The notes under the pieces: generated by a model
What the model was told of the DNA's origin: nothing
Database searches by the model: none
What the model saw: the letters and a program-made list of their open reading frames with translations, nothing else
Shown: positions 7,265 through 38,704 of the stretch, in pieces
How positions within the stretch are numbered: the first letter of the stretch is position 1
Layout of the letters: every line of letters begins with the position of its first letter
Position numbers and translations under genes: made by a program
NCBI GenBank assembly: GCA_903821335.1
Contig: CAIJKV010000267.1
Location: forward strand, 1 to 59,661
DNA length: 59,661 nt
From: an uncultured beta proteobacterium
GTDB taxonomy: Bacteria; Pseudomonadota; Gammaproteobacteria; Burkholderiales; Burkholderiaceae_B
Reading direction: 5' to 3'

Positions 7265-8216
7265 GAATATTTCCTTCGACAATGATCTGCTTGGCGCGTG
7301 CCATGTCCGCCTTCTGGAAATCGGCGAAGTCCTGGCGCGTGCCAGGCGTCATCAGCAGACCCTGCTCGCTTAATTTGGGGCCCATCGACGCAAGCGCTTT
7401 GTTCACCTCAGCGTTCAGGTACTCGGCGATGGGTGTAGGCATCTTGGCGGGGGCCCACAACCCGTACCAACTGTAGAACGCGTAGCCTTTGATGGTTTCA
7501 CCCACGGTCGGAATCTCGGGCATGCTGGGCACGCGACTCTCGGACGTGACGGCCAGCACTCTTAACTGGCCTGCCTTGGCAAAGCCCGCTGAACCGAGGA
7601 TTGGATCGATGAAGCCCTCGATGCGCCCGCCTATCAAGTCGTTATAGGCGGGTGACGATCCTTTGTATTGGATGACGGTGTAGTCCATGCCGCTGTCGCG
7701 CTTGAGCAACTCGGTCGACAGGTGGCCCGCCGAGGCCAGGGAACCAATTGCGAAGGAAAGCTTGCCAGGGTTGGCCTTTGAATAGGCGATGAGTCCCGCC
7801 ATGTCCTTTGCCGGCAAATCCTTGTTTACCGCGACAGCCAGGGGTGCCTTGGCAACCAGGGCGACAGGCTGAAAATCCGCATCCACGTCATAGACCACAC
7901 CTTTGACAACCATCGGCGCCGTTGCAAATGTCGACGCACTGAACAGAAGGGTATAGCCGTCCGGATTGGCGCGTGCGACGGCGTTGGCGCCGATGACCCC
8001 ACCTGCGCCGGCGCGGTTTTCGACAATGAAAGACTGTCCCGTCTGTTCACCCAGTTTCTGGGCCAGCAGGCGCCCGACCGTATCCAGTGTCCCACCTGGC
8101 GGAAACGGGATCACCACGGTTACCGCATGCGTCGGATAATTTTGGGCGCACACATTCACCGTCATGCCGAGCCCTGACGCTGCGACCAGCATCGCGAATA
8201 ACTGCTTGATGTTCAT
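7254..8216 (-). CDS. Bug-family (TctC-like) periplasmic tricarboxylate-type receptor
   Basis: 320 residues from ATG 8216, with AAGGGGAG upstream. The signal peptide ends VNVCAQ. The mature protein begins with the family hallmark VTVVIPFPPGGTLDTVGR, with the usual Asp that contacts a carboxylate ligand, then NRAGAGGVIGAN and NPDGYTLLF. Bug proteins bind carboxylic acids in the periplasm and hand them to TctAB or, as orphans, to unknown partners. No tctA/tctB is present here. Position between the lyase and the SDR/tartrate dehydratase genes suggests the ligand is the same acid (perhaps tartrate); that is inference. Confidence 0.93.
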   Translation of the reverse strand: MNIKQLFAMLVAASGLGMTVNVCAQNYPTHAVTVVIPFPPGGTLDTVGRLLAQKLGEQTGQSFIVENRAGAGGVIGANAVARANPDGYTLLFSASTFATAPMVVKGVVYDVDADFQPVALVAKAPLAVAVNKDLPAKDMAGLIAYSKANPGKLSFAIGSLASAGHLSTELLKRDSGMDYTVIQYKGSSPAYNDLIGGRIEGFIDPILGSAGFAKAGQLRVLAVTSESRVPSMPEIPTVGETIKGYAFYSWYGLWAPAKMPTPIAEYLNAEVNKALASMGPKLSEQGLLMTPGTRQDFADFQKADMARAKQIIVEGNIRAE

Positions 8217-8245
8217 TTGTTGTCTCCCCTTGCGTTCAATCACAT

Positions 8246-9178
8246 TCAACGCTTGAGCAACCCTGCGTTGGCAACCGCGGCGCGCAACCGCGCGATCTCG
8301 GCCTCGGTTGGAGCTTCTGTGGGTGGACGCACGGTGGGCGCGTCCAGCACGCCGGCGAGATACATGCCCATTTTCATGCGTGCATGCGCCTCGCCAGTGG
8401 GTTCTCCGCCTCCGTAGACCGCGTCCTTGAGCGGCGTGATCAACGCCTGGACCTGCATGGCGCGCTTGAGGTCTCCTGCCTGGACGGCTTCCCAGAGATC
8501 ATTGATCAGACTAGGAATGAAGGTTGCAAAACCGACCAGCGCACCATCCACGCCCTGCACCATGGAGGCGAGCAGGTACTCATCGTGGCACGTCAGGATC
8601 GCCTTCGTGGCATCGGCGGCTCGGATCGCCGCGATGTCGGCTGCATACTTGTTCATGTCCCGCTGTCCGACTTTGAATGCCTGCACATAAGGCAGTCGGG
8701 CCAATTCAGCGAGCGTCGCCGACGAGTATGAAGCACGGGTCCACGCGGGGTAGACGTGGGCCACCAGGTCAAGTCCGACCGTCGAAATATTTTCAAAATA
8801 GCGCGTGACGTGATCGGGGCGAAAGCCAAAACGCAGCCAATGGTGGGGGGGCATGACATCCAGTCCCTTGGCGCCAGCGTCACGGGCCATCTGCGCCTGC
8901 TCTTTCGCGTCGCGCAGCCCTTCGCACACCACTGAGGAGATCACCGGCAATATGCCCTCAAGCTCGCTGGCCACAATACGCGTCACTTCGGCGCGTTCGC
9001 GCGGGGTCAGTGAAAAAACCTCGCCCGTATGACCGTTTGTCATCACGGCAACCACCCCTGGTTGCGTAGCCAGCCACGCCGCATGCGTGCGCAGCGCGGC
9101 TTCATCGATCTTGTAATCGACGGTGAATGGGCAGGCGATGGCGGGAATAATGCCCCGATAGTGATTGATTGTTGGCAC
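8246..9178 (-). CDS. Dihydrodipicolinate synthase/N-acetylneuraminate lyase family protein
   Basis: 310 residues, a class I pyruvate-type aldolase barrel. Features: GHTGEVFSLTPRER (the GTTGE-like pyruvate loop), a Schiff-base Lys in AFKVGQRD, and CHDEYLL. The catalytic Tyr that precedes Pro by three places in classical DapA (YNVP) is His here (HVYPAWT), so this is unlikely to be lysine-biosynthetic DapA. The start is GTG 9178 with GGAGAC 4 bases upstream; no ATG fits. It is first in the leftward operon (29 bases to the Bug gene) and divergent from LysR, so a keto-acid lyase or dehydratase in sugar/hydroxy-acid catabolism is likely. Confidence 0.87.
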   Translation of the reverse strand: MPTINHYRGIIPAIACPFTVDYKIDEAALRTHAAWLATQPGVVAVMTNGHTGEVFSLTPRERAEVTRIVASELEGILPVISSVVCEGLRDAKEQAQMARDAGAKGLDVMPPHHWLRFGFRPDHVTRYFENISTVGLDLVAHVYPAWTRASYSSATLAELARLPYVQAFKVGQRDMNKYAADIAAIRAADATKAILTCHDEYLLASMVQGVDGALVGFATFIPSLINDLWEAVQAGDLKRAMQVQALITPLKDAVYGGGEPTGEAHARMKMGMYLAGVLDAPTVRPPTEAPTEAEIARLRAAVANAGLLKR

Positions 9179-19514: not shown

Positions 19515-20480
19515 ATGATTCACAGCACATTTTTACGGGTGATGGCTGTCGCGGCCACGCTCGCCGCACTGCCAGCGGCGGCGCAGATGCCCGCCAAACC
19601 GATTACGATGATCGTGCCCTTCGCGGCTGGTGGCAATCTGGATCTGGTCGCGCGTATCATCGCGCCACCGATGGCCAAAGCGCTCGGGCAGCCGGTGGTG
19701 GTGCAAAACAAGGCTGGCGCGGGCGGCGCCATCGCGGCGTCTGAAGTGGCGCGTGCCGAACCAGACGGAACCACCCTGTTGGTCAGCACACCCAATGCCA
19801 TCGTCGTGGTGCCTAAGATGATCACGACACCCTACGATCTGAACAGCTTCGCCAGCGTCGGGCTGATCGCGTCCACCTCTCAAGTTGTGGTGATTCGCGC
19901 AGACAATCCGAAATTCAAAGATCTCCCTGACCTGATTGCCTACGCCAAGAAAAACCCGGGCAAGGTCAGCATGGCGCATTCCGGCATAGGCACCACCAAT
20001 CACCTCGCCATCATGCAGCTGCAAAGCACCGCCGGGGTGTCCTTCAACATCGTGGCCTACAAGGGGTCTGGCCCGGCCATCATGGATCTGCTGGGTGGTC
20101 AGGTCGACGTATTGGTCGATCAGCTTTCGAGTTCGATTGCCAACATCAAGGCTGGGAAAATGACGGCGCTGACGGTCCTGTCCAACGCCCGGGATCCTTT
20201 ACTACCGGAGATCCCCGGCACCAGAGAAGGCGGCCTCGCGGCACTCGATACCAGCACCACGACTGGCCTGCTGGCACCAGCCAAAACCCCTGCCGCCACA
20301 CTGGCTGCCCTGAACGGCGCGTTGAACAAAGCGTTACAGGATGACGATGTGAAAGCCCAGCTGCTGCGTGTTGGCAGCATTGCCCGGCCTGGCGCTGCTG
20401 ATACCTTCACGCAGTTGCTCACACTCGAGGACAGCCAGGCCCGCTCGCTGGCCGATGCTGGAAAGCTCAAGACCGATTGA
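19515..20480 (+). CDS. Bug-family (TctC-like) periplasmic receptor
   Basis: 321 residues; GAGGAG lies upstream of the ATG. The signal peptide ends LPAAAQ. Motifs ITMIVPFAAGGNLDLVARI, NKAGAGGAIAASEVA and EPDGTTLLV are as expected for the family. It follows the aldolase gene and is immediately followed by another Bug gene, so two receptors of the same family are encoded side by side. No membrane transport subunits are present nearby. Confidence 0.93.
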   Translation: MIHSTFLRVMAVAATLAALPAAAQMPAKPITMIVPFAAGGNLDLVARIIAPPMAKALGQPVVVQNKAGAGGAIAASEVARAEPDGTTLLVSTPNAIVVVPKMITTPYDLNSFASVGLIASTSQVVVIRADNPKFKDLPDLIAYAKKNPGKVSMAHSGIGTTNHLAIMQLQSTAGVSFNIVAYKGSGPAIMDLLGGQVDVLVDQLSSSIANIKAGKMTALTVLSNARDPLLPEIPGTREGGLAALDTSTTTGLLAPAKTPAATLAALNGALNKALQDDDVKAQLLRVGSIARPGAADTFTQLLTLEDSQARSLADAGKLKTD

Positions 20481-20593
20481 CCGGTCACGCCGGCAGTTTC
20501 GCCGAGGCCGACAATCTCAAGAAAATTCTTGTCGATAGGCTCGCCGTTCTTTATGTTTGCAACCAACACTTCCTTCTAGCAGTGAGGTATGAC

Positions 20594-21571
20594 TTGATTC
20601 GCAATGCCACATCAAACGTTCTATTTGTCCTTGGGCTGACGCTCGGTGGACCAGGCGCCGTCAGCGCGCAAACAGACACTGATTACCCGACACGGCCGGT
20701 CAAAGTGGTCGTGTCGTTTACTGCGGGCGGGACAACCGATGTCATCGCGCGCAGCGTCGGCCAGTCACTAGCCGAACAGTTCAGGCAGCCCTTTGTCATC
20801 GAAAACAAACCGGGTTCGGGTGGAAACATAGGCAACGAAATCGTGGCGCGTGCTGCCGCTGACGGCTACACCCTCACTGTCGCCTCGGTCGGCCCGATCG
20901 CCATCAATCCGACTCTGTTCAAGAACCTGAAATACGACCCACTGACAGAGCTTGTGCCCGTCATCCTGATTGCCGACGTTCCCAACGTGCTGGTGATCAA
21001 CCCGACACTGCCGATCAAGACATTTTCCGAATTCGTGGCCTACGGCAAAGCCAAGAACGGCACCCTTAATTATGCTTCGACCGGCGTGGGCACGTCCGCG
21101 CATCTGTCGAGCTTCATGCTCATCCAGCGCATGGGTGTCGAGGCCCAGCATATTCCCTACAAGGGGGCCGAGGCGCTCAATGACTTGTTGGCTGGAAGGA
21201 TCGATTTCATGTTCGCGACCATTCCGTCTGTGATCAGCCAGATCAAGGCTGGCAAGCTTCGGGCCCTGGCTGTTAGCAGCGCCCAACCCTCTCGTTCGTT
21301 GCCTGGCGTACCGACTATTGCCCAAAGTGGTTATCCGGGGTTTGAAGCCGGATCGTGGTTTGGCATGCTGGCACCCCGTGGCACGCCCGACGCAGTCATC
21401 AGAAAGCTTAATCATGGCGTGACGCGCGCGATGGCCGGGTTAGAGGAAAGTTTTATCGCCCAAGGCGCAGACCCCGTGGGTGGCTCGCCCGAATTCTTCA
21501 GGGACTTCATCCAGAAGGAATATGAAAAATGGAAAGTCGTGGTGATTGAGTCCGGCGCCAGCGCCAGGTAG
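20594..21571 (+). CDS. Bug-family (TctC-like) periplasmic receptor (TTG start)
   Basis: 325 residues. I chose TTG 20594 because GAGG at 20584-20587 is correctly spaced and the protein then opens with a normal signal peptide ending AVSAQ; a longer frame reaching back into the previous gene has no ribosome site. Motifs: VKVVVSFTAGGTTDVIARS, NKPGSGGNIGNEIVA, ADGYTLTVA. It is distinct from the Bug protein just upstream, so this is not a recent duplication. The 2-hydroxyacid dehydrogenase gene follows after 49 bases. Confidence 0.9.
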   Translation: MIRNATSNVLFVLGLTLGGPGAVSAQTDTDYPTRPVKVVVSFTAGGTTDVIARSVGQSLAEQFRQPFVIENKPGSGGNIGNEIVARAAADGYTLTVASVGPIAINPTLFKNLKYDPLTELVPVILIADVPNVLVINPTLPIKTFSEFVAYGKAKNGTLNYASTGVGTSAHLSSFMLIQRMGVEAQHIPYKGAEALNDLLAGRIDFMFATIPSVISQIKAGKLRALAVSSAQPSRSLPGVPTIAQSGYPGFEAGSWFGMLAPRGTPDAVIRKLNHGVTRAMAGLEESFIAQGADPVGGSPEFFRDFIQKEYEKWKVVVIESGASAR

Positions 21572-22657: not shown

Positions 22658-23818
22658 TCAGAACGGGTTCGAGTTCTGATTCTGGTTCCAGCCCTGAGTC
22701 TGCGTCCCGTTCTGGTTTTGGTTTTGGTTTTGGTTTTGGTTTTGGTTTTGGTTCTGGTTTTGGCTCTGACTCTGACTCTGGTTTGGCGAAGTACTTGGCG
22801 CAATGCTGGGCCCCGTTGCTGGAACTGACACGGTGGCTGAACGTTGTACCTGACCCTGGCTTTGACCTTGCGTCTGGCTTTGACCTTGCCCCTGACTGTC
22901 GCGTGGTGCGGACTGAGGCTGGCTATCCCTAATTTCCACCTCTTCCGAGGTCACCGCAATCTTCAGCGTGTGCTCGCCGCCACCACGAATAACGCCCCGC
23001 AAGGGCGACACATCGCCAAAATCACGTCCGATCGCCAGGCGGACATGGCCCGACCCCGCAAGCACATCGTTGGTCGGATCAAGCTCGAGCCAGTTACCGG
23101 GCGCGCCGGGACAATAGACAGACACCCACGCATGCGATGCATCGGCGCCGCGCAGCTTGACCTTGCCTGGTGGCGGCTTGGTCAGCAAATACCCGCTGAC
23201 ATACTGCGCACTCAGTCCCAGGGATCGCAGGCAACCAATCAGGATGTGTGAAAAATCCTGGCACACGCCGGCACGCTTATTGAAGGCGTCAATCACCGAA
23301 GTGTGGACGTCGGTTGCAGCCGGAGAATATTTGAAATCATTGTGTATGCGGTGAGACAAGTCAATGCTGGCCTCGGCGATCGTGCGCCGCTTGGTAAAGG
23401 ATGGGGCGGCATACGCACGCAGCTCCATCAGCCGTGGCACATAAGGACTGAAAAATGCGAATTCGCAGGCGGCCAGATACGGACGATCAAGCGCGTAGGA
23501 CAAGGCTTCGGCTACATCTTCCCACTCTGGCGTTTTCAACGCAACGAAGCCCGTGTAGCGGTCGATCAGGCTGACCGTGGACAGCGCACGAACCGCCAGA
23601 GCGGCGTGCGGCGTCGATAGCGTAAAAAACGTGCGGTGGTTGCCAAAGGTGTCTTTGCAGTCGGTCTGACTGTCTGGGGTGGGTTCGACGGTAACCGTCG
23701 ATTCCAGCACCTTTTGCCAGTCGGTTGACAGTGGTCGCAAATACGCCAGATGGTGGGCCAGCTCGACCTCCGTCTGGTACTTGTAAAAGGTTTCGTGTTC
23801 GACCTGTATATACGTCAT
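22658..23818 (-). CDS. Transglutaminase-like cysteine peptidase-fold protein with Gln/Asn repeat tail
   Basis: 386 residues. An N-terminal beta domain (about 1-140) is followed by a transglutaminase core: Cys in GVCQDFSH, His in ADASHAWVSVY, Asp in LELDPTND. After about residue 290 the chain becomes a low-complexity tail of SQ/GQ pairs and then roughly ten Asn-Gln pairs, ending NSNPF. It is the last gene of the leftward amidoligase operon, and its start overlaps the stop of the ATP-grasp–alpha-E fusion by four bases. In this system such proteins are predicted to cut or transfer amide-linked peptides. The repeat tail is not part of the usual fold. Confidence 0.88.
   Translation of the reverse strand: MTYIQVEHETFYKYQTEVELAHHLAYLRPLSTDWQKVLESTVTVEPTPDSQTDCKDTFGNHRTFFTLSTPHAALAVRALSTVSLIDRYTGFVALKTPEWEDVAEALSYALDRPYLAACEFAFFSPYVPRLMELRAYAAPSFTKRRTIAEASIDLSHRIHNDFKYSPAATDVHTSVIDAFNKRAGVCQDFSHILIGCLRSLGLSAQYVSGYLLTKPPPGKVKLRGADASHAWVSVYCPGAPGNWLELDPTNDVLAGSGHVRLAIGRDFGDVSPLRGVIRGGGEHTLKIAVTSEEVEIRDSQPQSAPRDSQGQGQSQTQGQSQGQVQRSATVSVPATGPSIAPSTSPNQSQSQSQNQNQNQNQNQNQNQNQNGTQTQGWNQNQNSNPF
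22708..22767. repeat. Hexanucleotide GGTTTT microsatellite inside the transglutaminase gene
   Basis: Six perfect GGTTTT units run from 22714 to 22749, followed by GGTTCT, GGTTTT and GGCTCT. On the coding strand they read as Asn-Gln pairs. The 6-base unit keeps frame whatever the copy number, so slippage would change tail length without breaking the gene. Confidence 0.9.
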
Positions 23819-26397
23819 GATGCAAAGTGCTGATCCACGGCATGCGCGAAGAAGCGGCGGCTGATTTCATCAGACAGCTGGCTGCCCCATTCGCCCACGG
23901 CACGCACAGTCGCCACTTGTTTCAAGACCGAATCTGCATCCGGATCAAAGGTGGGCATGGTCTTGAGCAGGCTTTCGCCGTACGGCACGTGCGCAAGCTC
24001 GCGCCCGAGTTCCTGCAGGATACAGCTGAATGAACGGGGATTGGTTTCGTCAGTAATCACCAGATCCATCAGCGCGGGAATATCCTGCTGTCGCTGGTAG
24101 CGCGTGCGATACGTAATCGAGCTATCAAACAGCACCAGCATGGTTTCAAACCCGCGCGGCGTATAGACCGCGGCATGGTTGAAAAACGCCGTCAAAATTT
24201 CGCTCAGGGAAATCAGTCGTTCGATCAACCGGCCTGCCGTCAACATGTGCCAGCCCAGGTCGCGCGTCATGCGGTCGGACTGGAAACCGACCAGGGCCAC
24301 AAGCTGTAAGGAAATAGCGTCAAGCACTTCGATCGTGTCGATGGCCGAGGCCTCGGCCATCCGTCCATTGCGTCGTGGGCGACCCTTGGCGGTCAGCTCC
24401 GACCTGTTGTCGCCGTTGCGCCTTGACCGCCCCCCCACCAGCATGCGTCGCATTGCCCGTGCGATCTCGGCGTGCTCGGCCGGCAGTCGATCTCGCACTG
24501 CCTTGAGTGAATACGCGAGCAAACCTATGGTGTCTGACAAGCCATGCACATCTTTCTGTGTCAACTGCCTGATCAACGCGCGCCCGAAAATCGCCGCGCC
24601 TTGTGTCAAGGTGGGTGTGCCCTGCGGAATCAGTCCATGGGTATGGGCGAGTTTGCCTATCGTTTCGTTCAGGGCTGGCAAGCTGTCTTGCTGGTTGGTA
24701 CTGACCAGCACCAAGGCCTCTTTCGCCAGCCGGACCATCGACTCGCACCGCTCAGTGTAGCGACCCAGCCAGAAAAGATTCTCGGCGGACCGACTCGAGA
24801 CCAACTGCTGCGACGCGGTCCAGCGCGGCACCTTTTCACGACTTGGCAACATCGAATAGGTATCGACTTGTTCGCCGGTCATCACCCAGGTGTCGAGGGT
24901 GCTGCCACCACTCTGGATCGAGACGATGTGCGGGTCCCCCGTCGCAATACGCGTCAAGCCACCCGGCAGCAGGTCCCATTCGCCATTGCCGGAGGCGACG
25001 GCGTACACACGCAGCATCGCCGTGCGCGGCTCAATCTGGTTGTCCTGCCAGGTCGGGGCCTGGGAAAACGGCAGATAGCTTTGGGTGGTGTAGATTTCCG
25101 GTTGCAAGTCCATGCGTTCGCGCCAAGTTTGCAACCCTGCTGCGTCTAGCACGCTGCCAATAACGGGTTGAAAATTAGTCCGCGGGTTGGTCGCATAGGT
25201 AGGCTTGATCACCTGGGTATGCAAATCAGGGGAAATATCCTGCCACGCTGCAGATTCACCGCACCACCAGGTGTTGAGCGAAGGCATCTTGAGCGGCTCA
25301 CCCAGCAAATGCTCGGATAAGGCGGGCAAAAAGCCCTGGATCGCCGGTGACTCGAGAAAACCGGTGCCCAGCGCGTTGGCCATGACGACGTTACCCGCAC
25401 GCACGGCCTGCAGTAAACCCGGCACGCCCAGGCTTGAGTCAGACTTGAGTTCCAGTGGGTCGCAAAAATCATCGTCCAGGCGACGCAGCAACCCATGGAT
25501 GGCTTGCAGGCCGTTCATGGTCTTCAAATAGAGCTTGTCGTCACGTACCGTCAGGTCAGCACCCTCGACCAGGGGCAAACCCAGATAGCGCGCCAGGTAA
25601 GCGTGTTCGAAGTAAGTTTCACTGTACGGGCCGGGAGTGAGCAGCGCAAAACGGGGCGTGCCCTGTGCAATCGGCGCGACGGCACTCTTGAGCGAGTCCA
25701 GCAAACGCCGGTAACTGGACGCGATATGCTGCACCCGCATCTCGCGATAGGCTTCTGGAAACAGGCGCGACACGATCAGGCGGTTTTCAAGCAGGTAGCC
25801 CAGGCCTGACGGAGACTGCGTACGTTGGCCGATCACCCACCAACGGCCATCAGGACCCCGGGCGATGTCGAAAGCCACGACATGCAAGTACGTGCCACCC
25901 AGGGGATTGATACCCTGCATCGACCGCAAGTATCCCGGGTTGCCCAAAACCAGTGCGGCCGGCAGGTAGCCCTCATGGATCAGGGTCTGTTTGTCGTAGA
26001 CATCCTGCAACACCGCGTTCAGTAGCTTGGCCCGCTGTTGCAGGCTGGCGCGGATGCCGCTCCATTCGCCCGGGCCGATCAGCATGGGCAGCGGATTGAG
26101 CGACCAGGGCCGCGTCTGTTCGCTGTCGTCGGCGTAGACGTTATAGGTCACGCCGTTTTGCTGGATCAGTCGTGCGATGGTGTCGGCGTTGGCGGGCAAG
26201 TCCTGAATCCCGGACTCGCCCACATAGCCAAAAAACGTCTGCCAGGTCTTGCGCAACTGGCCCTTCGCGTCACGCAATTCGTCGTAATGCCCGAGCTTGG
26301 TCTGCGCCGTCAATTCGCGCACCATCTGCGCGGTCAGCTCGATTTTCTGGTCTGCGAGCGCGACGGGGTCAACCTTGAGAATCGGGATGGACGACAT
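23815..26397 (-). CDS. Circularly permuted ATP-grasp–alpha-E fusion protein
   Basis: 860 residues. The first ~500 are the circularly permuted ATP-grasp region (DUF404/DUF407): NGVTYNVYADD, the TPGPYSETYFEHAYLA block, RLDDDFCDPLEL, and NVVMANALGTGF. From about residue 540 the alpha-E helical domain (DUF403) begins with SAENLFWLGRYTERCE. The usual acidic loop before PSG is VIGQRTQSPSG here, against VLEDNLRVPSG in the stand-alone paralogue, so the metal-binding set differs. It sits between the two transglutaminase genes; 16 bases separate it from the one upstream. Predicted role: peptide or amide bond formation with ATP, from the Iyer–Aravind amidoligase work; not shown experimentally. Confidence 0.92.
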   Translation of the reverse strand: MSSIPILKVDPVALADQKIELTAQMVRELTAQTKLGHYDELRDAKGQLRKTWQTFFGYVGESGIQDLPANADTIARLIQQNGVTYNVYADDSEQTRPWSLNPLPMLIGPGEWSGIRASLQQRAKLLNAVLQDVYDKQTLIHEGYLPAALVLGNPGYLRSMQGINPLGGTYLHVVAFDIARGPDGRWWVIGQRTQSPSGLGYLLENRLIVSRLFPEAYREMRVQHIASSYRRLLDSLKSAVAPIAQGTPRFALLTPGPYSETYFEHAYLARYLGLPLVEGADLTVRDDKLYLKTMNGLQAIHGLLRRLDDDFCDPLELKSDSSLGVPGLLQAVRAGNVVMANALGTGFLESPAIQGFLPALSEHLLGEPLKMPSLNTWWCGESAAWQDISPDLHTQVIKPTYATNPRTNFQPVIGSVLDAAGLQTWRERMDLQPEIYTTQSYLPFSQAPTWQDNQIEPRTAMLRVYAVASGNGEWDLLPGGLTRIATGDPHIVSIQSGGSTLDTWVMTGEQVDTYSMLPSREKVPRWTASQQLVSSRSAENLFWLGRYTERCESMVRLAKEALVLVSTNQQDSLPALNETIGKLAHTHGLIPQGTPTLTQGAAIFGRALIRQLTQKDVHGLSDTIGLLAYSLKAVRDRLPAEHAEIARAMRRMLVGGRSRRNGDNRSELTAKGRPRRNGRMAEASAIDTIEVLDAISLQLVALVGFQSDRMTRDLGWHMLTAGRLIERLISLSEILTAFFNHAAVYTPRGFETMLVLFDSSITYRTRYQRQQDIPALMDLVITDETNPRSFSCILQELGRELAHVPYGESLLKTMPTFDPDADSVLKQVATVRAVGEWGSQLSDEISRRFFAHAVDQHFAS

Positions 26398-26413: not shown

Positions 26414-29400
26414 TCATGGTGTGTACCGGAGATCGAGTGTAAAGGGAAATTCCAAACCTGGGGCGCGCGGCTCTAACTGGATCCTGCCCGGCGTGTGCTC
26501 AAGCTGGAAATATCTCGCCAGACGGCGGCTTTCAGCCTCGAACCCGTTGACAGGCAAGGTATCGTAATTGCGCCCCCCGGGATGCACGACGTGGTAGCGG
26601 CAGCCCCCAAGTGACCGGGACATCCAGTTATCGACCACATCAAACGTAAGCGGCGCATGAACCGGGATCGTCGGATGGAGCGCCGAAGGCGGATTCCAGG
26701 CGCGATAACGCACCCCGATGATGTACTCACCCTCAACGCCGGTCGGCTGCATGGTGGGCACCACACCGTTGACCGCAATCGCATAGCGATTGTCGTTATA
26801 GCCCGACACCTTGAGTTCCAGCCGCTCAACGGACGAGTCAACATAGCGCACGGTGCCGCCCCCGCCACCCTCTTCACCCATGACGTGCCAGGGCTCGAGC
26901 GCGGATCGCAGTGAAAGCTTCATGCCGCGCACGTCGGTCTCACCGATGAACGGGAACCGGAACTCGGCATGCGGCGCGAACCAGTCCGAATCAAACGCGT
27001 ACCCGGCATGATTTAGCTCGGCGATGACGTCTTCAAAATCCATCAGCACAAACGTCGGTAGCATGAAGCGGTCATGCAACTGCGTGCCCCACCGTGTCAG
27101 ACGGGTCTTGCTGCGCGGCGCATAGGGTGTTTTCCAGAACCAGGCCACCAGCGCCCGAATCAGCAACTGCTGGGCAAGGCTCATGTGCGCATGGGGCGGC
27201 ATTTCAAAGCCGCGTAATTCAAGCAGCCCAAGGCGTCCTGTCGGGCCATCCGGCGAGTACAGCTTGTCGATACTGAACTCGGAACGGTGCGTATTGCCGG
27301 TGACGTCGATCAGGATGTTACGCAACGCGCGGTCAACCATCCAGGGCGGGCAGCCCTTGGGGCTCCGCATCTGCAGTTCAATTTCCCGAAGCGCGATTTC
27401 CAGCTCATAGGTCTGGTCATTGCGCGCCTCGTCAACCCGTGGCGCCTGGCTGGTCGGGCCAATAAACAGACCCGAAAACAGGTAGGACATCGACGGGTGG
27501 TTATGCCAGAACGTCAGCAGGCTGGCCAGCACATCCGGGCGCCGCAGGAACGGGCTGTCGGCCGGCGTGGCGGCCCCCATCACAAAGTGATTGCCACCAC
27601 CCGTGCCGGTGTGGCGACCATCCATCATGAATTTTTCAGTGCTCAGGCGTGTCTGGTGTGCCGCCTCGTACAGGAACTCAGTATGGTCAACCAGTTGTGA
27701 CCAGTTGCGCGCGGGGTGAATATTGACCTCGATGACGCCAGGATCCGGGGTCACTTGCAGCACGGTCAGGCGCGGATCACGTGGAGGCGGATAGCCCTCG
27801 ATCACAAGACTGAAGTCCAGCGCGGCAGCGGTGTCCTCGACAGCCGTCAGGAGGATGAGGTAATCGTCCAGGTGCGTCACGGGCGGCATGAACACATACA
27901 ACACGGAGCTCTCAGGGGCCGCAAACTCGACCTTGGGCCCGTTGCTGCGGTTGGGATTGCGCACCTCCACGCAAAGCGCGGTGCGCGCGACACCCGCGGC
28001 CGACTCAAATTTGACGGGTGGCTGCTCGTCCGGATCAACAGAATCGAGCTTGCGGGCTTCACCCTCTGCTGCGCCGCGCGCCAACTGCTGGCGCGTTTCG
28101 GCCACCGAGGCAAGCGGCGCGCGCGGCGCAAAGGGATCGGCTTCGATCAGGAATGGATAGTCAGCAGGAGCCACCCAGGGCAAGGAGTCCAGCGGCAGGC
28201 GGTAGCCCATCGCCGAATCGCCAGGGATGAGGGACATGCGGTCATCGCGCAGGAACCATGGACCCGAACGCCAGCGTGGCGCGGCCACGGCAGACGAGTC
28301 TTCACGCTGGATCGGCAGGGCATAACCCACGGGGGTGCCAAGCTTATGGTCGAACACCCGGCGCAGACGCGCGCGCTCGAGCTCGTCATCCAGCCGTGAA
28401 TCAGACGGGTCGACGTTAATCGGCAGGCTGCGCTCGCGCCACATGTAATACAAGGCATCTTCGAAACCGGGCTGGATGTTGCTGCGCCCAAGGCCCAGTT
28501 TGTCTGCCAGGACATGGATGAACATATGGGCGTCGTCGGGGGTGTACTGGTGCACCTCACGTTCGTCGGCAAAGAGGTCCGGATTATTCCAGCACGGCTT
28601 GCCGTCGGTCCGCCAGTAGGCCGACAGCGACCAGCGGGGCAACTGCTCACCCGGGTACCATTTGCCCTGGCCAAAGTGCAGGAACCCGCCCTGTGCGTAT
28701 TGCGCCTGCAATTTCTGCATCAGCTCGGCGGCCAGCCCGCGCTTGGTGGGGCCCAGCGCGTCGGTGTTCCACTCCGCGCCATCGCGGTCCAGCGCCGACA
28801 CAAAGGTCGGCTCGCCACCCATCGTCAGACGCACGTCCAGGTCATTGAGCCGGTCATCGACCTCGTGGCCAAGCTGTTCAATCGCTTTCCACTGGCTTTC
28901 GTCATAAGGCTTGGTCACTCGCGGCGACTCGTACACCCGCTGTGCTGACATTTGGTGCATAAACTCGACTTCGCACGGATCTAACGCACCAGAAATGGGC
29001 GCAGCCGACGAAGGCTCAGGCGTGCAGGCGATCGGAATATGTCCTTCACCAGCCAACAAACCCGACGTTGGATCAAGACCCACCCAACCTGCGCCGGGCA
29101 GGTAAACCTCGCACCAGGCATGCAAATCGGTAAAGTCAGTCTCGGCGCCGGTCGGGCCATCCACCGCCTCGACATCAGGCTTGAGCTGGATCAGGTAGCC
29201 AGAAACAAAACGCGCCGCCAGGCCAAGCTGTCGGAACAACTGCACCAGCAGCCAGCCAGAATCGCGGCATGAGCCTGACCCGAGTTCCAGCGTCTGTTCA
29301 GGCGTCTGGACGCCCGGCTCCATCCGGATCGTATAGGCAACCCGCTTATGCACGCTGCTATTGAGGGCAACCAGGAAGTCTATCGTCCGCATCTTTTCGC

Positions 29401-29806
29401 GCGGGGCCGACTTGAGGAAGGCCTCAAACTCGCTACCGACTTCGGCGAGCCGCAAGTACGGAGCCAGGTCGGCCTGCAGGCCGGCGTCATACTCGAAGGG
29501 GTACGTCTCTGCCTCAGGAGACAGGAAAAAATCAAAGGGGTTGTAGACGGACATCTCGGCGACAAGATCGACCGTAATCTCGAATTTACGCGTCTTGTCC
29601 GGGAACACCAGCCGCGCCTCGTAATTGGAGAACGGGTCCTGCTGCCAGTTGATGAAATGGTTCTCTGGCGTGACGCGCATCGAGTACGACAGAATGCGCG
29701 TGCGGCAATGCGGCGCCGGCCGCAAGCGAACCACCTGGGGACCCAGGTTGATCAATTTGTCGTAACTGTAAGAAGTTACGTGATGGAGTGCGACATGGAT
29801 AGACAT
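26414..29806 (-). CDS. Transglutaminase–DUF2126 (putative amidoligase) protein
   Basis: 1130 residues from ATG 29806. The N-terminal ~300 residues hold a transglutaminase fold: VALHHVTSYSYDK, catalytic Cys in GSGSCRDSGWLL, His in DLHAWCEVYLPG, Asp in LDPTSGLL. The rest is DUF2126, a glutamine-synthetase-like putative amidoligase domain (VRLTMGGEPTFV, FGQGKWYPGEQLPRW, GGGNHFVMGAA, LLELRGFEMPPHAHM). It is the first gene of the leftward operon and starts about 13 bases from one arm of a sigma-54 promoter pair. The combination suggests one protein that can both make and break amide links; substrate unknown. Confidence 0.93.
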   Translation of the reverse strand: MSIHVALHHVTSYSYDKLINLGPQVVRLRPAPHCRTRILSYSMRVTPENHFINWQQDPFSNYEARLVFPDKTRKFEITVDLVAEMSVYNPFDFFLSPEAETYPFEYDAGLQADLAPYLRLAEVGSEFEAFLKSAPREKMRTIDFLVALNSSVHKRVAYTIRMEPGVQTPEQTLELGSGSCRDSGWLLVQLFRQLGLAARFVSGYLIQLKPDVEAVDGPTGAETDFTDLHAWCEVYLPGAGWVGLDPTSGLLAGEGHIPIACTPEPSSAAPISGALDPCEVEFMHQMSAQRVYESPRVTKPYDESQWKAIEQLGHEVDDRLNDLDVRLTMGGEPTFVSALDRDGAEWNTDALGPTKRGLAAELMQKLQAQYAQGGFLHFGQGKWYPGEQLPRWSLSAYWRTDGKPCWNNPDLFADEREVHQYTPDDAHMFIHVLADKLGLGRSNIQPGFEDALYYMWRERSLPINVDPSDSRLDDELERARLRRVFDHKLGTPVGYALPIQREDSSAVAAPRWRSGPWFLRDDRMSLIPGDSAMGYRLPLDSLPWVAPADYPFLIEADPFAPRAPLASVAETRQQLARGAAEGEARKLDSVDPDEQPPVKFESAAGVARTALCVEVRNPNRSNGPKVEFAAPESSVLYVFMPPVTHLDDYLILLTAVEDTAAALDFSLVIEGYPPPRDPRLTVLQVTPDPGVIEVNIHPARNWSQLVDHTEFLYEAAHQTRLSTEKFMMDGRHTGTGGGNHFVMGAATPADSPFLRRPDVLASLLTFWHNHPSMSYLFSGLFIGPTSQAPRVDEARNDQTYELEIALREIELQMRSPKGCPPWMVDRALRNILIDVTGNTHRSEFSIDKLYSPDGPTGRLGLLELRGFEMPPHAHMSLAQQLLIRALVAWFWKTPYAPRSKTRLTRWGTQLHDRFMLPTFVLMDFEDVIAELNHAGYAFDSDWFAPHAEFRFPFIGETDVRGMKLSLRSALEPWHVMGEEGGGGGTVRYVDSSVERLELKVSGYNDNRYAIAVNGVVPTMQPTGVEGEYIIGVRYRAWNPPSALHPTIPVHAPLTFDVVDNWMSRSLGGCRYHVVHPGGRNYDTLPVNGFEAESRRLARYFQLEHTPGRIQLEPRAPGLEFPFTLDLRYTP

Positions 29807-29818
29807 ATGATTCTCATC

Positions 29819-29835
29819 AAGCAATATCTGTGCCA
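29819..29835 (-). promoter_or_regulatory. Predicted sigma-54 (-24/-12) promoter of the transglutaminase–DUF2126 operon
   Basis: On the reverse strand CTGGCACAGATATTGCT fits the sigma-54 consensus YTGGCACGN4TTGCW with one mismatch, and GG and GC are exactly 10 bases apart. With C of the GC at -12, transcription would begin near 29809, only about three bases before the ATG at 29806, so the message would be nearly leaderless. Confidence 0.75.
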
Positions 29836-29857
29836 GAGTAAGCTAAATCTAACCATT

Positions 29858-29874
29858 TGGCACAGATATTGCTT
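29858..29874 (+). promoter_or_regulatory. Predicted sigma-54 (-24/-12) promoter of the ATP-grasp/alpha-E operon
   Basis: TTGGCACAGATATTGCT fits the sigma-54 consensus with one mismatch and correct GG-N10-GC spacing. The start of transcription would be near 29884, leaving about 75 bases of leader before ATG 29959. An enhancer-binding activator would be required; its site is not certain. Confidence 0.75.
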
Positions 29875-29958
29875 AAACTGAACAAACTCAAAATCCTTTT
29901 GTGCAACATGGCACGTAAGGGATGTTACTTTCTTTATAAACGCGTGACAGGTGCCCTG

Positions 29959-31434
29959 ATGCAGCAACAAGCGCAAGCAACCGCTTTTGACGAAATGGTG
30001 GATGGAAGCGGATATCGCACCGTTCAGGCCATTGGCGCCGCCGACAAGATCCGACCGCACTACGAGGATTTTGCAAACTGGCTCGCGCACCAACCTGAAC
30101 AAGCTTTGCGCGCGCGACGCGACGAGGCCGAGCTCATCTTTCGGCGTGTGGGCATTACGTTTGCGGTCTACGGCGACAACGACGGCACCGAGCGCACGAT
30201 CCCGTTTGACATCGTGCCCCGGATTTTTCCGACGCATGAATGGGCGCGCCTGGAGCAAGGTCTCAAGCAGCGTGTCCAGGCGCTCAACATGTTCTTGCAC
30301 GACGTCTATCACGATCAACATATCCTGAAAGCAGGCGTGGTTCCGCGCGAGCAGGTGCTGAATAATTCCCAGTATCGGCCCGAGATGCAGGGCATCGACG
30401 TGCCGCTGGGCATTTACGCGCACATCGCCGGAATCGATATCGTACGCGCCAATCACGGCGCGAACACAGGCGAATTCTTCGTACTCGAGGATAACCTACG
30501 CGTACCCTCGGGCGTGTCATACATGCTTGAAAATCGCAAAATGATGATGCGATTGTTCCCGGAGTTATTCGCCAGCCATCGGGTCGCGCCGGTCGCGCAC
30601 TACCCGGACCTGCTGCTCGACGCGCTGCGCAACGCCGCACCCGCCCCCGCGGATGTGCGTCAGCCCAATGTCGTTGTGCTCACACCCGGCATGTACAACT
30701 CGGCCTACTTCGAGCATGCCTTTCTCGCCCAACAAATGGGTGTCGAACTCGTCGAAGGCATGGACCTGTTTGTAAAAGACGACGTCGTGTTCATGCGCAC
30801 GACACAGGGCCCGCGACGCGTCGATGTCATATACCGCCGTGTGGATGACGACTTCCTTGATCCCGAGGCTTTCCGCGAGGACTCCACGCTTGGTCCGAAA
30901 GGCCTGCTTCGCGCCTATCGCGCGGGTAACGTGGCGATCTGCAACGCAATCGGCACCGGCGTCGCGGACGACAAGTCCATCTACCCGTACGTGCCGGACA
31001 TGATCCGCTTTTATCTCAGCGAAGAGCCCCTGATCGCCAACGTCCCGACCTTCATGTGCCGCAAGCCAGACGAACTGGATTACGTCATCAGCAACATGGC
31101 GCAGTTGGTGGTCAAGGAAGTGCACGGCGCGGGCGGCTACGGCATGCTGGTGGGCCCCGCGTCGACTCAGGCGGAAATCGCGTCGTTCAAAGAACGCGTG
31201 CTCGCCAATCCGACGAACTACATCGCACAGCCGACACTGGCTTTGTCGACCTGCCCAACCTATGTCGAATCGGGCATCGCACCGCGCCATATTGACCTGA
31301 GGCCGTTCGTGCTGTCGGGCAAACAAGTCAGGCTTGTGCCCGGCGGGCTGACGCGCGTCGCGCTCAAGGAAGGGTCCTTGGTCGTGAACTCGTCGCAAGG
31401 CGGTGGCACCAAAGACACCTGGATTCTCGAATAA
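29959..31434 (+). CDS. Circularly permuted type 2 ATP-grasp protein
   Basis: 491 residues from ATG 29959, where similarity to the family begins (AFDEM); in-frame sequence upstream overlaps the promoter. ATP-grasp features: RRVGITFAVYGD, FVLEDNLRVPSGVSYMLENR with the acidic Glu-Asp-Asn metal set intact, TPGMYNSAYFEHAFLA, YRRVDDDFLDP and GAGGYGMLVGP. Predicted ATP-dependent carboxylate–amine ligase. It is followed 17 bases later by the alpha-E gene, the normal partner, and is divergent from the transglutaminase operon. Confidence 0.93.
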   Translation: MQQQAQATAFDEMVDGSGYRTVQAIGAADKIRPHYEDFANWLAHQPEQALRARRDEAELIFRRVGITFAVYGDNDGTERTIPFDIVPRIFPTHEWARLEQGLKQRVQALNMFLHDVYHDQHILKAGVVPREQVLNNSQYRPEMQGIDVPLGIYAHIAGIDIVRANHGANTGEFFVLEDNLRVPSGVSYMLENRKMMMRLFPELFASHRVAPVAHYPDLLLDALRNAAPAPADVRQPNVVVLTPGMYNSAYFEHAFLAQQMGVELVEGMDLFVKDDVVFMRTTQGPRRVDVIYRRVDDDFLDPEAFREDSTLGPKGLLRAYRAGNVAICNAIGTGVADDKSIYPYVPDMIRFYLSEEPLIANVPTFMCRKPDELDYVISNMAQLVVKEVHGAGGYGMLVGPASTQAEIASFKERVLANPTNYIAQPTLALSTCPTYVESGIAPRHIDLRPFVLSGKQVRLVPGGLTRVALKEGSLVVNSSQGGGTKDTWILE

Positions 31435-31451: not shown

Positions 31452-32408
31452 ATGCTCTCCAGAACCGCAGATCACCTCTACTGGATGTCGCGCTACACCG
31501 AGCGTGCCGAAAACACCGCGCGCATGCTCGACGTCAATTACCAAATGTCGCTGCTGCCACAATCCGAGGCCGCCATCGAGGGTGCCTGGCGCGCCATGCT
31601 TGAAATTTCCGAACTCACTTACGCATACGCCGCCGAGCATCCGCGCGTCACGGCCGGAGACGTCATCCTGTTCATGGTCAGTGACATGGACAACCTGTCG
31701 TCCATCATGCGCTGCCTGCAGGGCGCACGCGAAAACGCGCGAGCGGTGCGCGGGTCTATCACCACGGAGTTGTGGGAAACCATCAACACGACCTGGCTTG
31801 AAGCGCAACGCATGATGCGCGAAGGCCTTCTGAGTACCGCGCCAGGCGAGTTTTTTGAGTGGGTCAAGTTCCGCTCACACCTGACGCGCGGCGTGCACGG
31901 CGGCACCATGATGCGCGGCGAGGTCTACGACTTCATCCAGTTGGGCACTTTTCTTGAGCGCGCGGACAATACTGCACGCCTGCTTGACGTCAAGTTTCTG
32001 GCGGCAGAGGCGCTGCAGCAAGAACAGGCCAAACCGGTGGCCGAATTCTATTACTGGACGGCCATCCTGCGTTCCGTATCGGCATTTGAAAATTATCGAA
32101 AGGTTTACCGGGACGTCATCACGCCCGAGCGTATCGCCGAGTTGCTGATCCTCAACCGCAACATGCCACGCTCGCTCGCGGCCTGCCTGCAGGAAGTCGT
32201 CGACACGCTGTCGCGGGTGCGCAACACTCAGTCAGCCGGCACGCAAATTGCCGCGCTCACCTTGCTGTCTGAGCTGCACGACATGCGTATCGACGAGATC
32301 CTGACCAAGGGGTTGCATGTCTACCTGACCGAGTTTCTCGATCGCGTCAACCAGGTGGGTGGCGGGATCAGCAAAGACTTCCTGGTGCCGCTCGAGATCG
32401 CCGCCTGA
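31452..32408 (+). CDS. Alpha-E domain protein (DUF403)
   Basis: 318 residues, all-helical alpha-E fold. It opens with the family signature MLSRTADHLYWMSRYTERAE and includes FIQLGTFLERADNTARLLD and LNRNMPRSLAACL. These proteins always accompany circularly permuted ATP-grasp ligases and are thought to act with them, perhaps as a peptide or carrier-binding partner; the activity is unproven. In many genomes a transglutaminase and a proteasome-like Anbu peptidase follow, but here the next gene is an RNA helicase. Confidence 0.92.
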   Translation: MLSRTADHLYWMSRYTERAENTARMLDVNYQMSLLPQSEAAIEGAWRAMLEISELTYAYAAEHPRVTAGDVILFMVSDMDNLSSIMRCLQGARENARAVRGSITTELWETINTTWLEAQRMMREGLLSTAPGEFFEWVKFRSHLTRGVHGGTMMRGEVYDFIQLGTFLERADNTARLLDVKFLAAEALQQEQAKPVAEFYYWTAILRSVSAFENYRKVYRDVITPERIAELLILNRNMPRSLAACLQEVVDTLSRVRNTQSAGTQIAALTLLSELHDMRIDEILTKGLHVYLTEFLDRVNQVGGGISKDFLVPLEIAA

Positions 32409-36585: not shown

Positions 36586-38085
36586 CTAGCCGGCACCAGC
36601 CTGCGACTTGCGCAGTGGTGCGGTGGGTATGCGCAACAACTCCCGATACTTTGCCACCGTGCGCCGCGCGATCGTGATGCCATCCTGTTCGAGTCGTGTC
36701 ACAAGCTGGCTGTCTGACAACGGACGCTTGCGATCTTCCTCTGCAATCAGAACCTCGATGCGCGTCTGGATCGCCGTGGCCGACGTGGCCTCGCCGCCCA
36801 TGGCGGAAAGTCCGGTGCTGAAAAACCGCTTGAGTTCCAGGGTGCCAAAGGGTGTCAACAGGAATTTCTGCGTGGTGGCGCGCGAAATCGTCGACTCATG
36901 CATCCCCAATTCGGCCGCAATGTCTTTCAGCGTCAACGGCCGGATCGCACCCCATCCCTGTGAAAAGAACAGTTGCTGATGCGTGACGATGGCCTGCGAG
37001 ACTCTCAGGATCGTGTCAAACCGCTGTGCAACGTTGCGTATCATCCACCGAGCCTCCTGCAACTGCCCATGCAAGGCGCTGTGCGCACCGCTGCGCGGGC
37101 TGCCCAGTGCTGCGGCATACAGCGTGTTGACGCGCAACCGGGGCACAACCGCCTCATTGAGCGTCGCCTGCCAACCCTGACGGGTTTTGCGCACAATGAC
37201 GTCGGGCACCGCAAAATCCGCCGCCGGCACGTTCCAGGCGCTGCCCGGCCGGGGGGTCAGGCGCAACACCAGCGCGTGCGCTCGCCGCAACAGGTCGGCA
37301 TCACACTGCAAGGCCTCACGCAGTCGCGCCATGTTGCCCGTGGCCAGAATAGGCAGGTGATGCTTGCACAGCGCGCGTGCGACGCGCAGCAATGCCTCCT
37401 CGCGCACCTCGGGGAAGCGATCCGGGTCGGCGTAGTGCAACTGTAAATCCAGGCATTCAGCCAAATCGCGGGCACCGACGCCAGGCGGGTCAAAAGACTG
37501 CAACAACTTGAGTGCCGGACCAAAATCGTCGACCTCGATACCCAGGTCCGGATTCAGCCATCCAGCGATTTCTTCCAGGGGCGAAGCGAGCAACCCGTCG
37601 TCATTGAGTTCATCAATCAACATCTCTGCGAGCGCGGCATCTCGTTTACCCACGCGCGTGGTGGCAAGCTGTTCGAGCAAATACTCTCGAAGGCTGCTGT
37701 TTCGTGCGGCCTCTGGTCGCTCGTCGTTGTCATCATCGCGTGACCCGCGGTTCTCGGGTGAAAAATCCAGTCGTTCGGCGGCGCGATCGGTGGCCGGTTC
37801 GATATCGGACTGGGGGCCCGGCCCACCGTCCTCTGCGCACGCTGGGCCATGATCCGGCTCAGTGCCAGGCGCGGCGATTTCGCCAGGGCGCGCCGGGGCA
37901 CTGGCAACGCCGGCCTCGAGCATGAAGTCACCCTCCTGTTCAAGCAGCGGGTTTTCAGCGAGTGCGTTAGCGACTTCAGCCTCAAGATCAAGCGTGGAAA
38001 GCTGCAACAATCTAATCGATTGCTGAAGCGCTGGGGTCAGGGCAAGGTGCTGTCCGTGACGAAGTTCGAGAAATAGACGACTCAT
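36586..38085 (-). CDS. rpoN: RNA polymerase sigma-54 factor
   Basis: 499 residues from ATG 38085; the next in-frame ATG upstream, at 38103, adds six residues not seen in the family. The N-terminal activator region LELRHGQHLALTPALQQSIRL is clear, followed by an acidic linker, the core-binding domain (SFDPPGVGARDLAECL), the HTH (LTLKDIAAELGMHESTISR) and the RpoN box ARRTVAKYRELLRIP that reads the -24 element. It directs transcription from -24/-12 promoters with enhancer-binding ATPases. It lacks the usual lptB and hpf neighbours, and its start nearly coincides with that of a divergent membrane-protein gene. Confidence 0.96.
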   Translation of the reverse strand: MSRLFLELRHGQHLALTPALQQSIRLLQLSTLDLEAEVANALAENPLLEQEGDFMLEAGVASAPARPGEIAAPGTEPDHGPACAEDGGPGPQSDIEPATDRAAERLDFSPENRGSRDDDNDERPEAARNSSLREYLLEQLATTRVGKRDAALAEMLIDELNDDGLLASPLEEIAGWLNPDLGIEVDDFGPALKLLQSFDPPGVGARDLAECLDLQLHYADPDRFPEVREEALLRVARALCKHHLPILATGNMARLREALQCDADLLRRAHALVLRLTPRPGSAWNVPAADFAVPDVIVRKTRQGWQATLNEAVVPRLRVNTLYAAALGSPRSGAHSALHGQLQEARWMIRNVAQRFDTILRVSQAIVTHQQLFFSQGWGAIRPLTLKDIAAELGMHESTISRATTQKFLLTPFGTLELKRFFSTGLSAMGGEATSATAIQTRIEVLIAEEDRKRPLSDSQLVTRLEQDGITIARRTVAKYRELLRIPTAPLRKSQAGAG

Positions 38086-38101
38086 AGGTACAATATTTTG
38101 C

Positions 38102-38704
38102 ATGATGAATCACTCAAAAAACGAAAATACCCGTCAAGACCGTCGTTTACTTGGCAATACGCTGCTTAAACTCGCCTTGCCGCGCCTCCTGACACGCCTT
38201 GCCGTCGTCCTGGTGGTCGCGCTTGGCTGGCTTTGGCTCAGCACCTATGTCGTCAACAAGGGGAAAACTGTCCGGTACGACGGGCTTGAGGCCTTTGGGC
38301 AACAAGTTGTCGACTTCCTGACACGCATCAATATCTATATCTGGTGGGGCCTCGTGCTGATCCTGACCCTGATCGTGATCGGTGCCCTCCGTAGCTGGTT
38401 GCGACGCAGTCTCGCGCGTGGGCGGGCGTCCCTGGTGCCCCTGGTTGTCATCAACAATCTCGCCGCCACACTGTCAACCGAAGCTCTGGACGTGCTGCGC
38501 TGGGTCTGGCAGGACACTGAAGTACCGATTACCGTGGGCAACCTGCAACAAACGCTGCGCCAGTTGCGTTCCGGCAGGGTCCGCAAACTCGCCCTGGCAC
38601 GCGCCCAGAAGGCATCGCTTGACCATGCCGGAGAGATTCTCCTTGCCGAAAAGACCGCCCCCCGAGACGTTCCAGGTCATCGCGAACCCGTCTGGAGGCC
38701 CTGA
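38102..38704 (+). CDS. Inner-membrane protein of unknown function
   Basis: 200 residues starting ATGATG at 38102. Two transmembrane segments are visible: LAVVLVVALGWLWLS (about 34-48) and IWWGLVLILTLIVIGAL (about 80-96), separated by a ~30-residue loop, then a basic, helical cytoplasmic tail. Its start overlaps or abuts that of rpoN on the other strand, so the promoters must lie inside each other's coding regions. Function unknown. Confidence 0.75.
   Translation: MMNHSKNENTRQDRRLLGNTLLKLALPRLLTRLAVVLVVALGWLWLSTYVVNKGKTVRYDGLEAFGQQVVDFLTRINIYIWWGLVLILTLIVIGALRSWLRRSLARGRASLVPLVVINNLAATLSTEALDVLRWVWQDTEVPITVGNLQQTLRQLRSGRVRKLALARAQKASLDHAGEILLAEKTAPRDVPGHREPVWRP

Follow-up and report, generated by a model that had tools for sequence, protein, structure and literature searches.

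What would a perfect inverted repeat be doing between the two halves of an amidoligase gene cluster, at the point where their operons turn away from each other? We examined this for the window, the whole 59,661-nucleotide stretch of DNA analysed here, which belongs to a 3.99 Mb genome assembled in 408 contigs and 94.7% complete. The explanation that we favour, with a probability of roughly 0.6, is that the repeat represents two back-to-back sigma-54 promoters, which would be fired by NtrC from a one-sided, perhaps intragenic enhancer.

The inverted repeat sits between a transglutaminase–DUF2126 operon and an ATP-grasp/alpha-E operon. Domains of the CP-ATP-grasp, alpha-E, transglutaminase and DUF2126 families are clustered around it, as is characteristic of the CP-ATP-grasp/alpha-E/transglutaminase amidoligase cluster that Iyer et al. 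reportedly described in 2009. The genes that matter for the argument are:

26414–29806, minus strand: transglutaminase–DUF2126 gene of the left operon, ATG at 29806
23815–26397, minus strand: fused CP-ATP-grasp/alpha-E gene of the left operon
22658–23818, minus strand: short transglutaminase-like gene of the left operon
29959–31434, plus strand: CP-ATP-grasp gene of the right operon, start 29959 preferred, in-frame ATG at 29908 possible
31452–32408, plus strand: alpha-E gene of the right operon
36586–38103, minus strand: rpoN (sigma-54) gene, all three sigma-54 domains present

The short transglutaminase (22658–23818) carries a long Gln/Asn-rich tract at its C-terminal end, and three TctC-type receptor genes lie in the window (19515–20480, 20477–21571 and 7254–8249), two of them adjacent. 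The rpoN gene is 6.7 kb from the promoter pair in the window, and rpoN and the ATP-grasp gene are on one contig in 10 of the 13 relatives in which both were located (G001, G002, G008, G009, G014, G015, G017, G018, G020 and G028; not G003, G004 and G016).

Each arm of the repeat, read outward, is TGGCACAGATATTGCTT, with exact GG-N10-GC spacing and an exact match to the -24/-12 pattern TGGCACN5TTGCW. The arms are complementary at 17 of 17 positions and lie 22 nt apart; an earlier note on this DNA had claimed both this repeat and its sigma-54 character, and the observation is confirmed. The elements are:

29819–29835, minus strand: predicted left sigma-54 core promoter, -24 GG at 29834/29833, -12 GC at 29822/29821, predicted +1 at ~29809
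29836–29857, no strand: 22-bp spacer between the left and right sigma-54 elements
29858–29874, plus strand: predicted right sigma-54 core promoter, predicted +1 at ~29884

No other site in the window matches TGGCACN5TTGCW exactly, and sites with up to two mismatches number 56, against 45.4 expected from shuffling. Across the genome there are 25 exact matches, compared with 4 for a reversed-pattern control, and nitrogen genes lie 3' of several of them, including glnA, urtA, nirB and amino-acid ABC transporter genes; the genes 3' of exact sites (glnA, urtA, nirB, amino-acid transporter and gvpA) were confirmed by family searches with ten proteins. Judged by their sequence, both arms are very probably sigma-54 sites, from which transcription would start. 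Three gvpA-like gas-vesicle genes (L004, L023 and L024, the family search having been made on L004) also have the exact sigma-54 pattern ~100 bp upstream.

The genus of the window appears to consist of Jezberella and uncultured relatives within the Alcaligenaceae. A search of 32 genomes of this genus returned 16 with a match to the ATP-grasp protein, and conservation was counted over the 14 loci in which the two genes are divergent and both gene starts are visible, using a threshold of at least 9/11 for each element; G027 (L147/L210) was left out of this count, its contig lacking the DUF2126 gene start. Both outward elements are kept in 13 of these 14 loci, the sole divergent locus with neither being that of J. 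montanilacus (L039), and in a further genome, G013, the fifteenth, the contig carries pair and DUF2126 gene but stops short of the right-hand gene. The earlier note had named loss of the elements in close relatives as grounds for abandoning its proposal, and what we find is their retention; comparative sequence thus supports its placing of two putative sigma-54 promoters aimed at the two operons. The spacer measures 22–24 bp in 11 of the 14 genus pairs (17, 32 and 57 bp in the others) and its sequence is unconserved, with a mean pairwise column identity of 0.36 among nine species with 23 bp. This comparison also agrees with the note's suggestion that there would be no room for an enhancer between the promoters.

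The importance that the note attached to an identical inverted repeat did not survive, since the arms are identical in only 4 of the 14 pairs and differ in the other 10. Within a species, the two arms agree at 99% of the ten consensus positions versus 46% of the N5 positions (14 pairs). Because so few pairs have identical arms, we regard the palindrome as incidental: on the sequences compared, the kept feature is two narrowly spaced sigma-54 promoters, held by their consensus. Selection on the palindrome itself is rejected in view of the ten pairs with differing arms. The perfect 17-bp dyad of the window could by itself suggest the operator of a dimeric regulator, its sigma-54 likeness being secondary; the divergence of the arms outside the consensus and the occurrence of 17-, 32- and 57-bp spacers make such an operator very improbable.

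We then asked how common the layout is. A strict back-to-back pattern with a 15–40-bp gap occurs in 29 of 268 family genomes, at 30 sites, versus none for the reversed-pattern control; convergent sigma-54 pairs occur in none of the 268, and back-to-back pairs with gaps of 41–71 bp in four. An order-wide sample of 399 genomes yielded two back-to-back pairs, both from this family. Spacers are 22–24 bp long at 26 of the 30 family sites, which are distributed as follows:

12 of 30 sites: between the DUF2126 and ATP-grasp genes (G000, G001, G002, G003, G004, G008, G009, G013, G017, G018, G020 and G028)
3 of 30 sites: between an ATP-grasp gene and a fused ATP-grasp/alpha-E gene, both belonging to this system (genus g72)
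13 of 30 sites: between genes for a substrate-binding protein and a small protein (genera g73, g16 and g6)
1 of 30 sites: between MlrC/M81 and TctC genes (L204)
1 of 30 sites: adjoining a PRC-barrel gene (L192)

Genus g72 has two further ATP-grasp/fused-gene pairs with 50-bp spacers. Among the substrate-binding-protein pairs, the Pfam search was made on L184, which gave Peripla_BP_6 and, at 26.8 bits, just below the 27-bit cut-off, SnoaL_2; the other 12 were matched to it by eye on their N-termini. Relatedness inside each gene context reduces the 30 sites to about three to five independent observations. By these sequence counts the back-to-back layout is unusual and beyond chance. The left leaders of L179–L191, beside substrate-binding-protein pairs, contain a ATTGTCGGCAAT...ATTGCCGACAA-type repeat seen by eye, perhaps the site of a second regulator.

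Sigma-54 transcripts start ~12 nt after the -12 element. From the -12 C to the DUF2126 ATG there are 14 nt in the window, 11–13 nt in 12 other pairs with TGGCAY arms and 46 nt in G016; with the ATG 11–14 nt past the -12 C, the leader of a left sigma-54 mRNA would be 0–3 nt long (~3 nt in the window). The corresponding distance at Variovorax loci is 57–79 nt. In at least 4 of 13 pairs (L029, L030, L033 and L034) a Shine-Dalgarno-like AAGG or AGGTG precedes the left ATG, and this would be absent from the sigma-54 transcript, which counts against a leaderless reading. On balance, these distances tip us slightly towards a leaderless or nearly leaderless left mRNA.

So short a leader also raises the possibility that a single arm is an active promoter and the other a silent or interfering holoenzyme site, in whose favour one may cite the left start, 0–3 nt from the ATG, and the fact that a downstream enhancer is the less usual arrangement; many E. 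coli sigma-54 sites appear to be transcriptionally inactive, according to the available part of PMC4591121. However, the left element is as strictly kept as the right one, with 13 pairs placing it 11–14 nt from the ATG, and the short distance recurs outside the genus in L092 and L099, where a sigma-54 element stands 11 and 12 nt before a DUF2126 gene that lies ~3 kb from the ATP-grasp gene. We therefore consider a single active arm improbable.

Several observations bear on the activator. The consensus of the NtrC dyad is TGCACN7GTGCA. For named Burkholderiales, the comparison was restricted to loci of 10 kb or longer, which removed 18 of 80. A sigma-54-like element lies upstream of the ATP-grasp gene in 49 of the remaining 62, against 58 of 496 equally sized control windows. 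NtrC-like dyads lie upstream of this element in some relatives and are missing from many; in L126, where the divergent genes are 315 bp apart and a sigma-54 element stands at the DUF2126 gene, dyads lie between the two starts. In the window's genome, dyads matching at least 8/10 consensus positions are found 56–125 bp upstream of 8 of the 17 other sigma-54 sites tested (the test passed over six of the 25 genome sites, which fall within long reading frames), and glnA, urtA and nirB have them ~90–125 bp upstream. The genome also encodes NtrC with its GAFTGA loop (L059; TIGR01818, 676.1 bits against a cut-off of 558.6).

Published work on relatives points the same way. In B. cenocepacia H111, the accessible text of PMC5491218 lists I35_5080-83 among the common targets of sigma-54 and NtrC by transcriptome, with expression reduced 6.0- to 9.4-fold in a nitrogen-limited ntrC mutant. 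The Anbu operon of P. putida is induced by nitrogen limitation and likely controlled by NtrB/NtrC, as far as the consulted portions of PMC7801951 and PMC8050072 go. From the comparative sequence, NtrC is probably the activator of both promoters. Given the elements and dyads of the relatives, the presence of ntrC and the B. cenocepacia H111 data, nitrogen control of the cluster is likely here and, being already published for relatives, not new. The joint, nitrogen-linked activation proposed in the earlier note thereby gains a putative NtrC link by sequence comparison and loses its novelty (cf. the parts seen of PMC5491218, PMC7801951 and PMC8050072).

A different enhancer-binding protein could in principle act on these promoters, as the genome has seven strong PF00158 matches, six besides NtrC and two NifA-like by eye, and no canonical NtrC site stands by the pair. 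The NtrC-like dyads at some relatives' promoters of the same genes and the response of the B. cenocepacia homologues to loss of ntrC (PMC5491218, in part) speak against this, and we rate it as distinctly unlikely. Two near-identical sigma-54 activators, NifA-like by eye (L057 and L058), occupy the same coordinates at the starts of contigs C281 and C408, and perhaps reflect a duplication or strain variants.

If NtrC is the activator, where would it bind? Sigma-54 enhancers usually lie ~70–150 bp upstream, according to the section consulted of PMC3844500. A search of 500 bp to either side of the pair in the window gave no NtrC-like dyad of at least 8/10, and a weight-matrix scan within 350 bp of the pair in 13 pair-bearing species reached at best 8.4 bits, the training sites of the matrix scoring 12.5–20.5 bits. 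In J. montanilacus (L039/L069, G014), which lacks the pair, a perfect NtrC dyad, TGCACTTTTTAGGTGCA, adjoins the DUF2126 start, possibly a case of NtrC acting at another promoter type. A dyad of the form GTGC-N6-GCAC in the right leader (~29904–29917) was rejected as an enhancer, being of non-NtrC form and, by eye, unkept across the genus.

At back-to-back pairs in two other gene contexts, the dyad stands to one side. All 13 substrate-binding-protein pairs have a dyad of 12.4–16.8 bits 163–200 bp to the left of the pair midpoint, that is, downstream of the left promoter, and 5 of the 13 have an additional match of 9.4–12.3 bits ~1180 bp to the right. Likewise, all five ATP-grasp/fused-gene pairs have one or two dyads of 10.4–17.4 bits at 81–123 bp on the fused-gene side. 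One-sided NtrC-like dyads are thus present at 18 of 18 pairs from these contexts, weakly so in L213 and L214 (10.4–10.6 bits, with higher matches elsewhere in 9 kb); the pairs at L192 and L204 have no dyad near. It is possible, and we put it forward tentatively, that back-to-back sigma-54 pairs spaced by 22–24 bp form a recurrent module of the Alcaligenaceae that arose in at least three gene contexts, with one one-sided NtrC enhancer per pair. In such a module a single NtrC enhancer, inside a leader or, here, inside coding sequence, would fire two promoters at once.

Candidate sites in coding sequence are found within the DUF2126 gene:

28985–29001, no strand: best NtrC-like dyad, CGCACCAGAAATGGGCG on the plus strand, 10.6 bits, nt 806–822 of the DUF2126 gene
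28943–28959, no strand: second, weaker NtrC-like dyad, nt 848–864 of the gene, 8/10 consensus positions, below 8 bits by the matrix

Pair-bearing Jezberella species have NtrC-like dyads at nt 806, 819 or 848 of this gene, and dyads ~0.8 kb into it are found in 11 of the 12 pair-bearing species that could be tested; the count stops at 11 because G016, whose pair has a 17-bp spacer, shows no dyad there (-0.1 bits at the cluster position; weaker matches of 11.7 and 10.4 bits at nt 1026 and 1075). In a scan of 654 overlapping coding windows of 72 nt, those starting at nt 793–805 rank first with a mean best score of 12.5 bits, compared with a mean of 0.73 (s.d. 2.4) over all windows and a next separate peak of 8.0. 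All ten species in the scan reach at least 9.8 bits at the cluster, L168 and L170 (incomplete genes) and G016 (for its 17-bp spacer) standing outside it. The best in-gene match of G009 lies outside the cluster, at nt 1100 (18.6 bits). J. montanilacus scores 5.6 bits at the cluster position, and 1 of 42 outgroup DUF2126 genes reaches 9.8 bits there. In G013, tested after the region had been chosen, the two best matches of the whole gene fall at the cluster (14.8 and 11.4 bits), although its closeness to G004 and G020 leaves it incompletely independent.

The dyad cluster further overlaps a peak of synonymous conservation at codons 265–275, the second-highest peak among 400 codons (observed/expected 1.68 versus a mean of 1.18, s.d. 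0.14); the highest peak, in the first 15 codons, may reflect the translation start. Shuffling synonymous codons 300 times gave 7.1 bits on average and 10.24 bits at most, versus 12.54 observed, with the qualification that these shuffles ignore relatedness and that the scan preceded the choice of region. When the motif columns were permuted, 1 of 300 motifs performed equally well, and 2 of 300 by lineage group.

The alternative with the most in its favour, which we nevertheless judge unlikely, retains NtrC-driven sigma-54 promoters and dispenses with a fixed nearby enhancer: NtrC would act from solution or from over-degenerate sites, and the intragenic dyads would be a by-product of the protein sequence. 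This would fit the lack of any 8/10 dyad closer than 500 bp to the pair in the window, and the protein sequence at nt 769–879 does already favour the motif, as the shuffle mean of 7.1 bits indicates. In addition, the dyad in the window is itself weak (10.6 bits, codon-shuffle p = 0.123), the single-species p exceeds 0.05 in 5 of 10 species, and G016 is without the cluster. Yet none of the 300 shuffles attained the observed score, most outgroup members of the gene family have no dyad, the two best matches of G013 fall in a preselected region, and synonymous sites are unusually conserved just there. Weighing these sequence signals, we put an intragenic enhancer in the DUF2126 gene at a little under even odds.

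Taken together, the explanation by two back-to-back sigma-54 promoters and a one-sided NtrC enhancer would work as follows. Nitrogen shortage would switch on both halves of the cluster together, through two sigma-54 holoenzymes bound back to back with their -24 GG pairs ~25 bp apart. Phosphorylated NtrC would loop the DNA from an enhancer outside the pair and to one side of it, which would consequently be upstream for one promoter and, for the other, downstream in the transcribed region. The likeliest enhancer here would be the dyad cluster at ~28943–29001 in the DUF2126 gene, ~0.8–0.9 kb from both promoters, and the left transcript would start 0–3 nt before the ATG and be translated leaderless or nearly so.

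If this is true, closely packed promoters that share an enhancer on one side would give two operons a single on/off decision in compact form. That raises the questions of whether there is space for a pair of holoenzymes in this back-to-back position and whether a single NtrC hexamer activates both promoters or selects one. The arrangement would also link a biochemically little-understood cluster to nitrogen starvation in one more bacterial group, and the locus would offer a clean test case for a natural intragenic bacterial enhancer and for a sigma-54 leaderless mRNA.

How does this arrangement compare with known systems? Divergent NtrA-dependent promoters are said to have been described by Lutz et al. 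in 1990 in the E. coli hydrogenase-3 region. The enhancer of B. subtilis rocG lies beyond the promoter's own gene and is bound by RocR, not NtrC. It is a natural enhancer 1.5 kb downstream of its sigma-54 promoter (PMC3844500 and PMC4941409, parts available). In the sox system of B. thuringiensis, one SoxR site serves two opposing sigma-54 promoters, at a distance of 1.7 kb or more from one of them; there the core promoters are far apart, not back to back, and the activator differs (PMC4941409, same portion). Long-range and downstream enhancers thus have precedent in rocG and sox.

Among systems with related genes, I35_5080-83 of B. cenocepacia H111 comprises the same families (DUF404/407, DUF403, which is alpha-E, transglutaminase and a large transglutaminase) in four consecutively numbered genes that are not known as divergent halves, unlike the cluster in the window; the part of PMC5491218 available describes neither a back-to-back pair nor an intragenic enhancer for them. 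The P. putida Anbu operon, PP_2685-2688, has related ATP-grasp/alpha-E/transglutaminase genes, contains Anbu and differs in layout from the window's cluster (excerpts of PMC7801951, PMC8050072, PMC5666114 and PMC6376114); its PP_2688 promoter fragment is nitrogen-responsive, whereas the PP_2685 fragment is not (PMC7801951 and PMC8050072, likewise in part). No back-to-back sigma-54 pair of the present kind was found among the matches listed for the literature searched, as far as the text of those sources was available. What would be new is the close packing of the two promoters together with an enhancer on one side; in other respects the proposed arrangement resembles known sigma-54/NtrC systems, with an unusual position of the enhancer.
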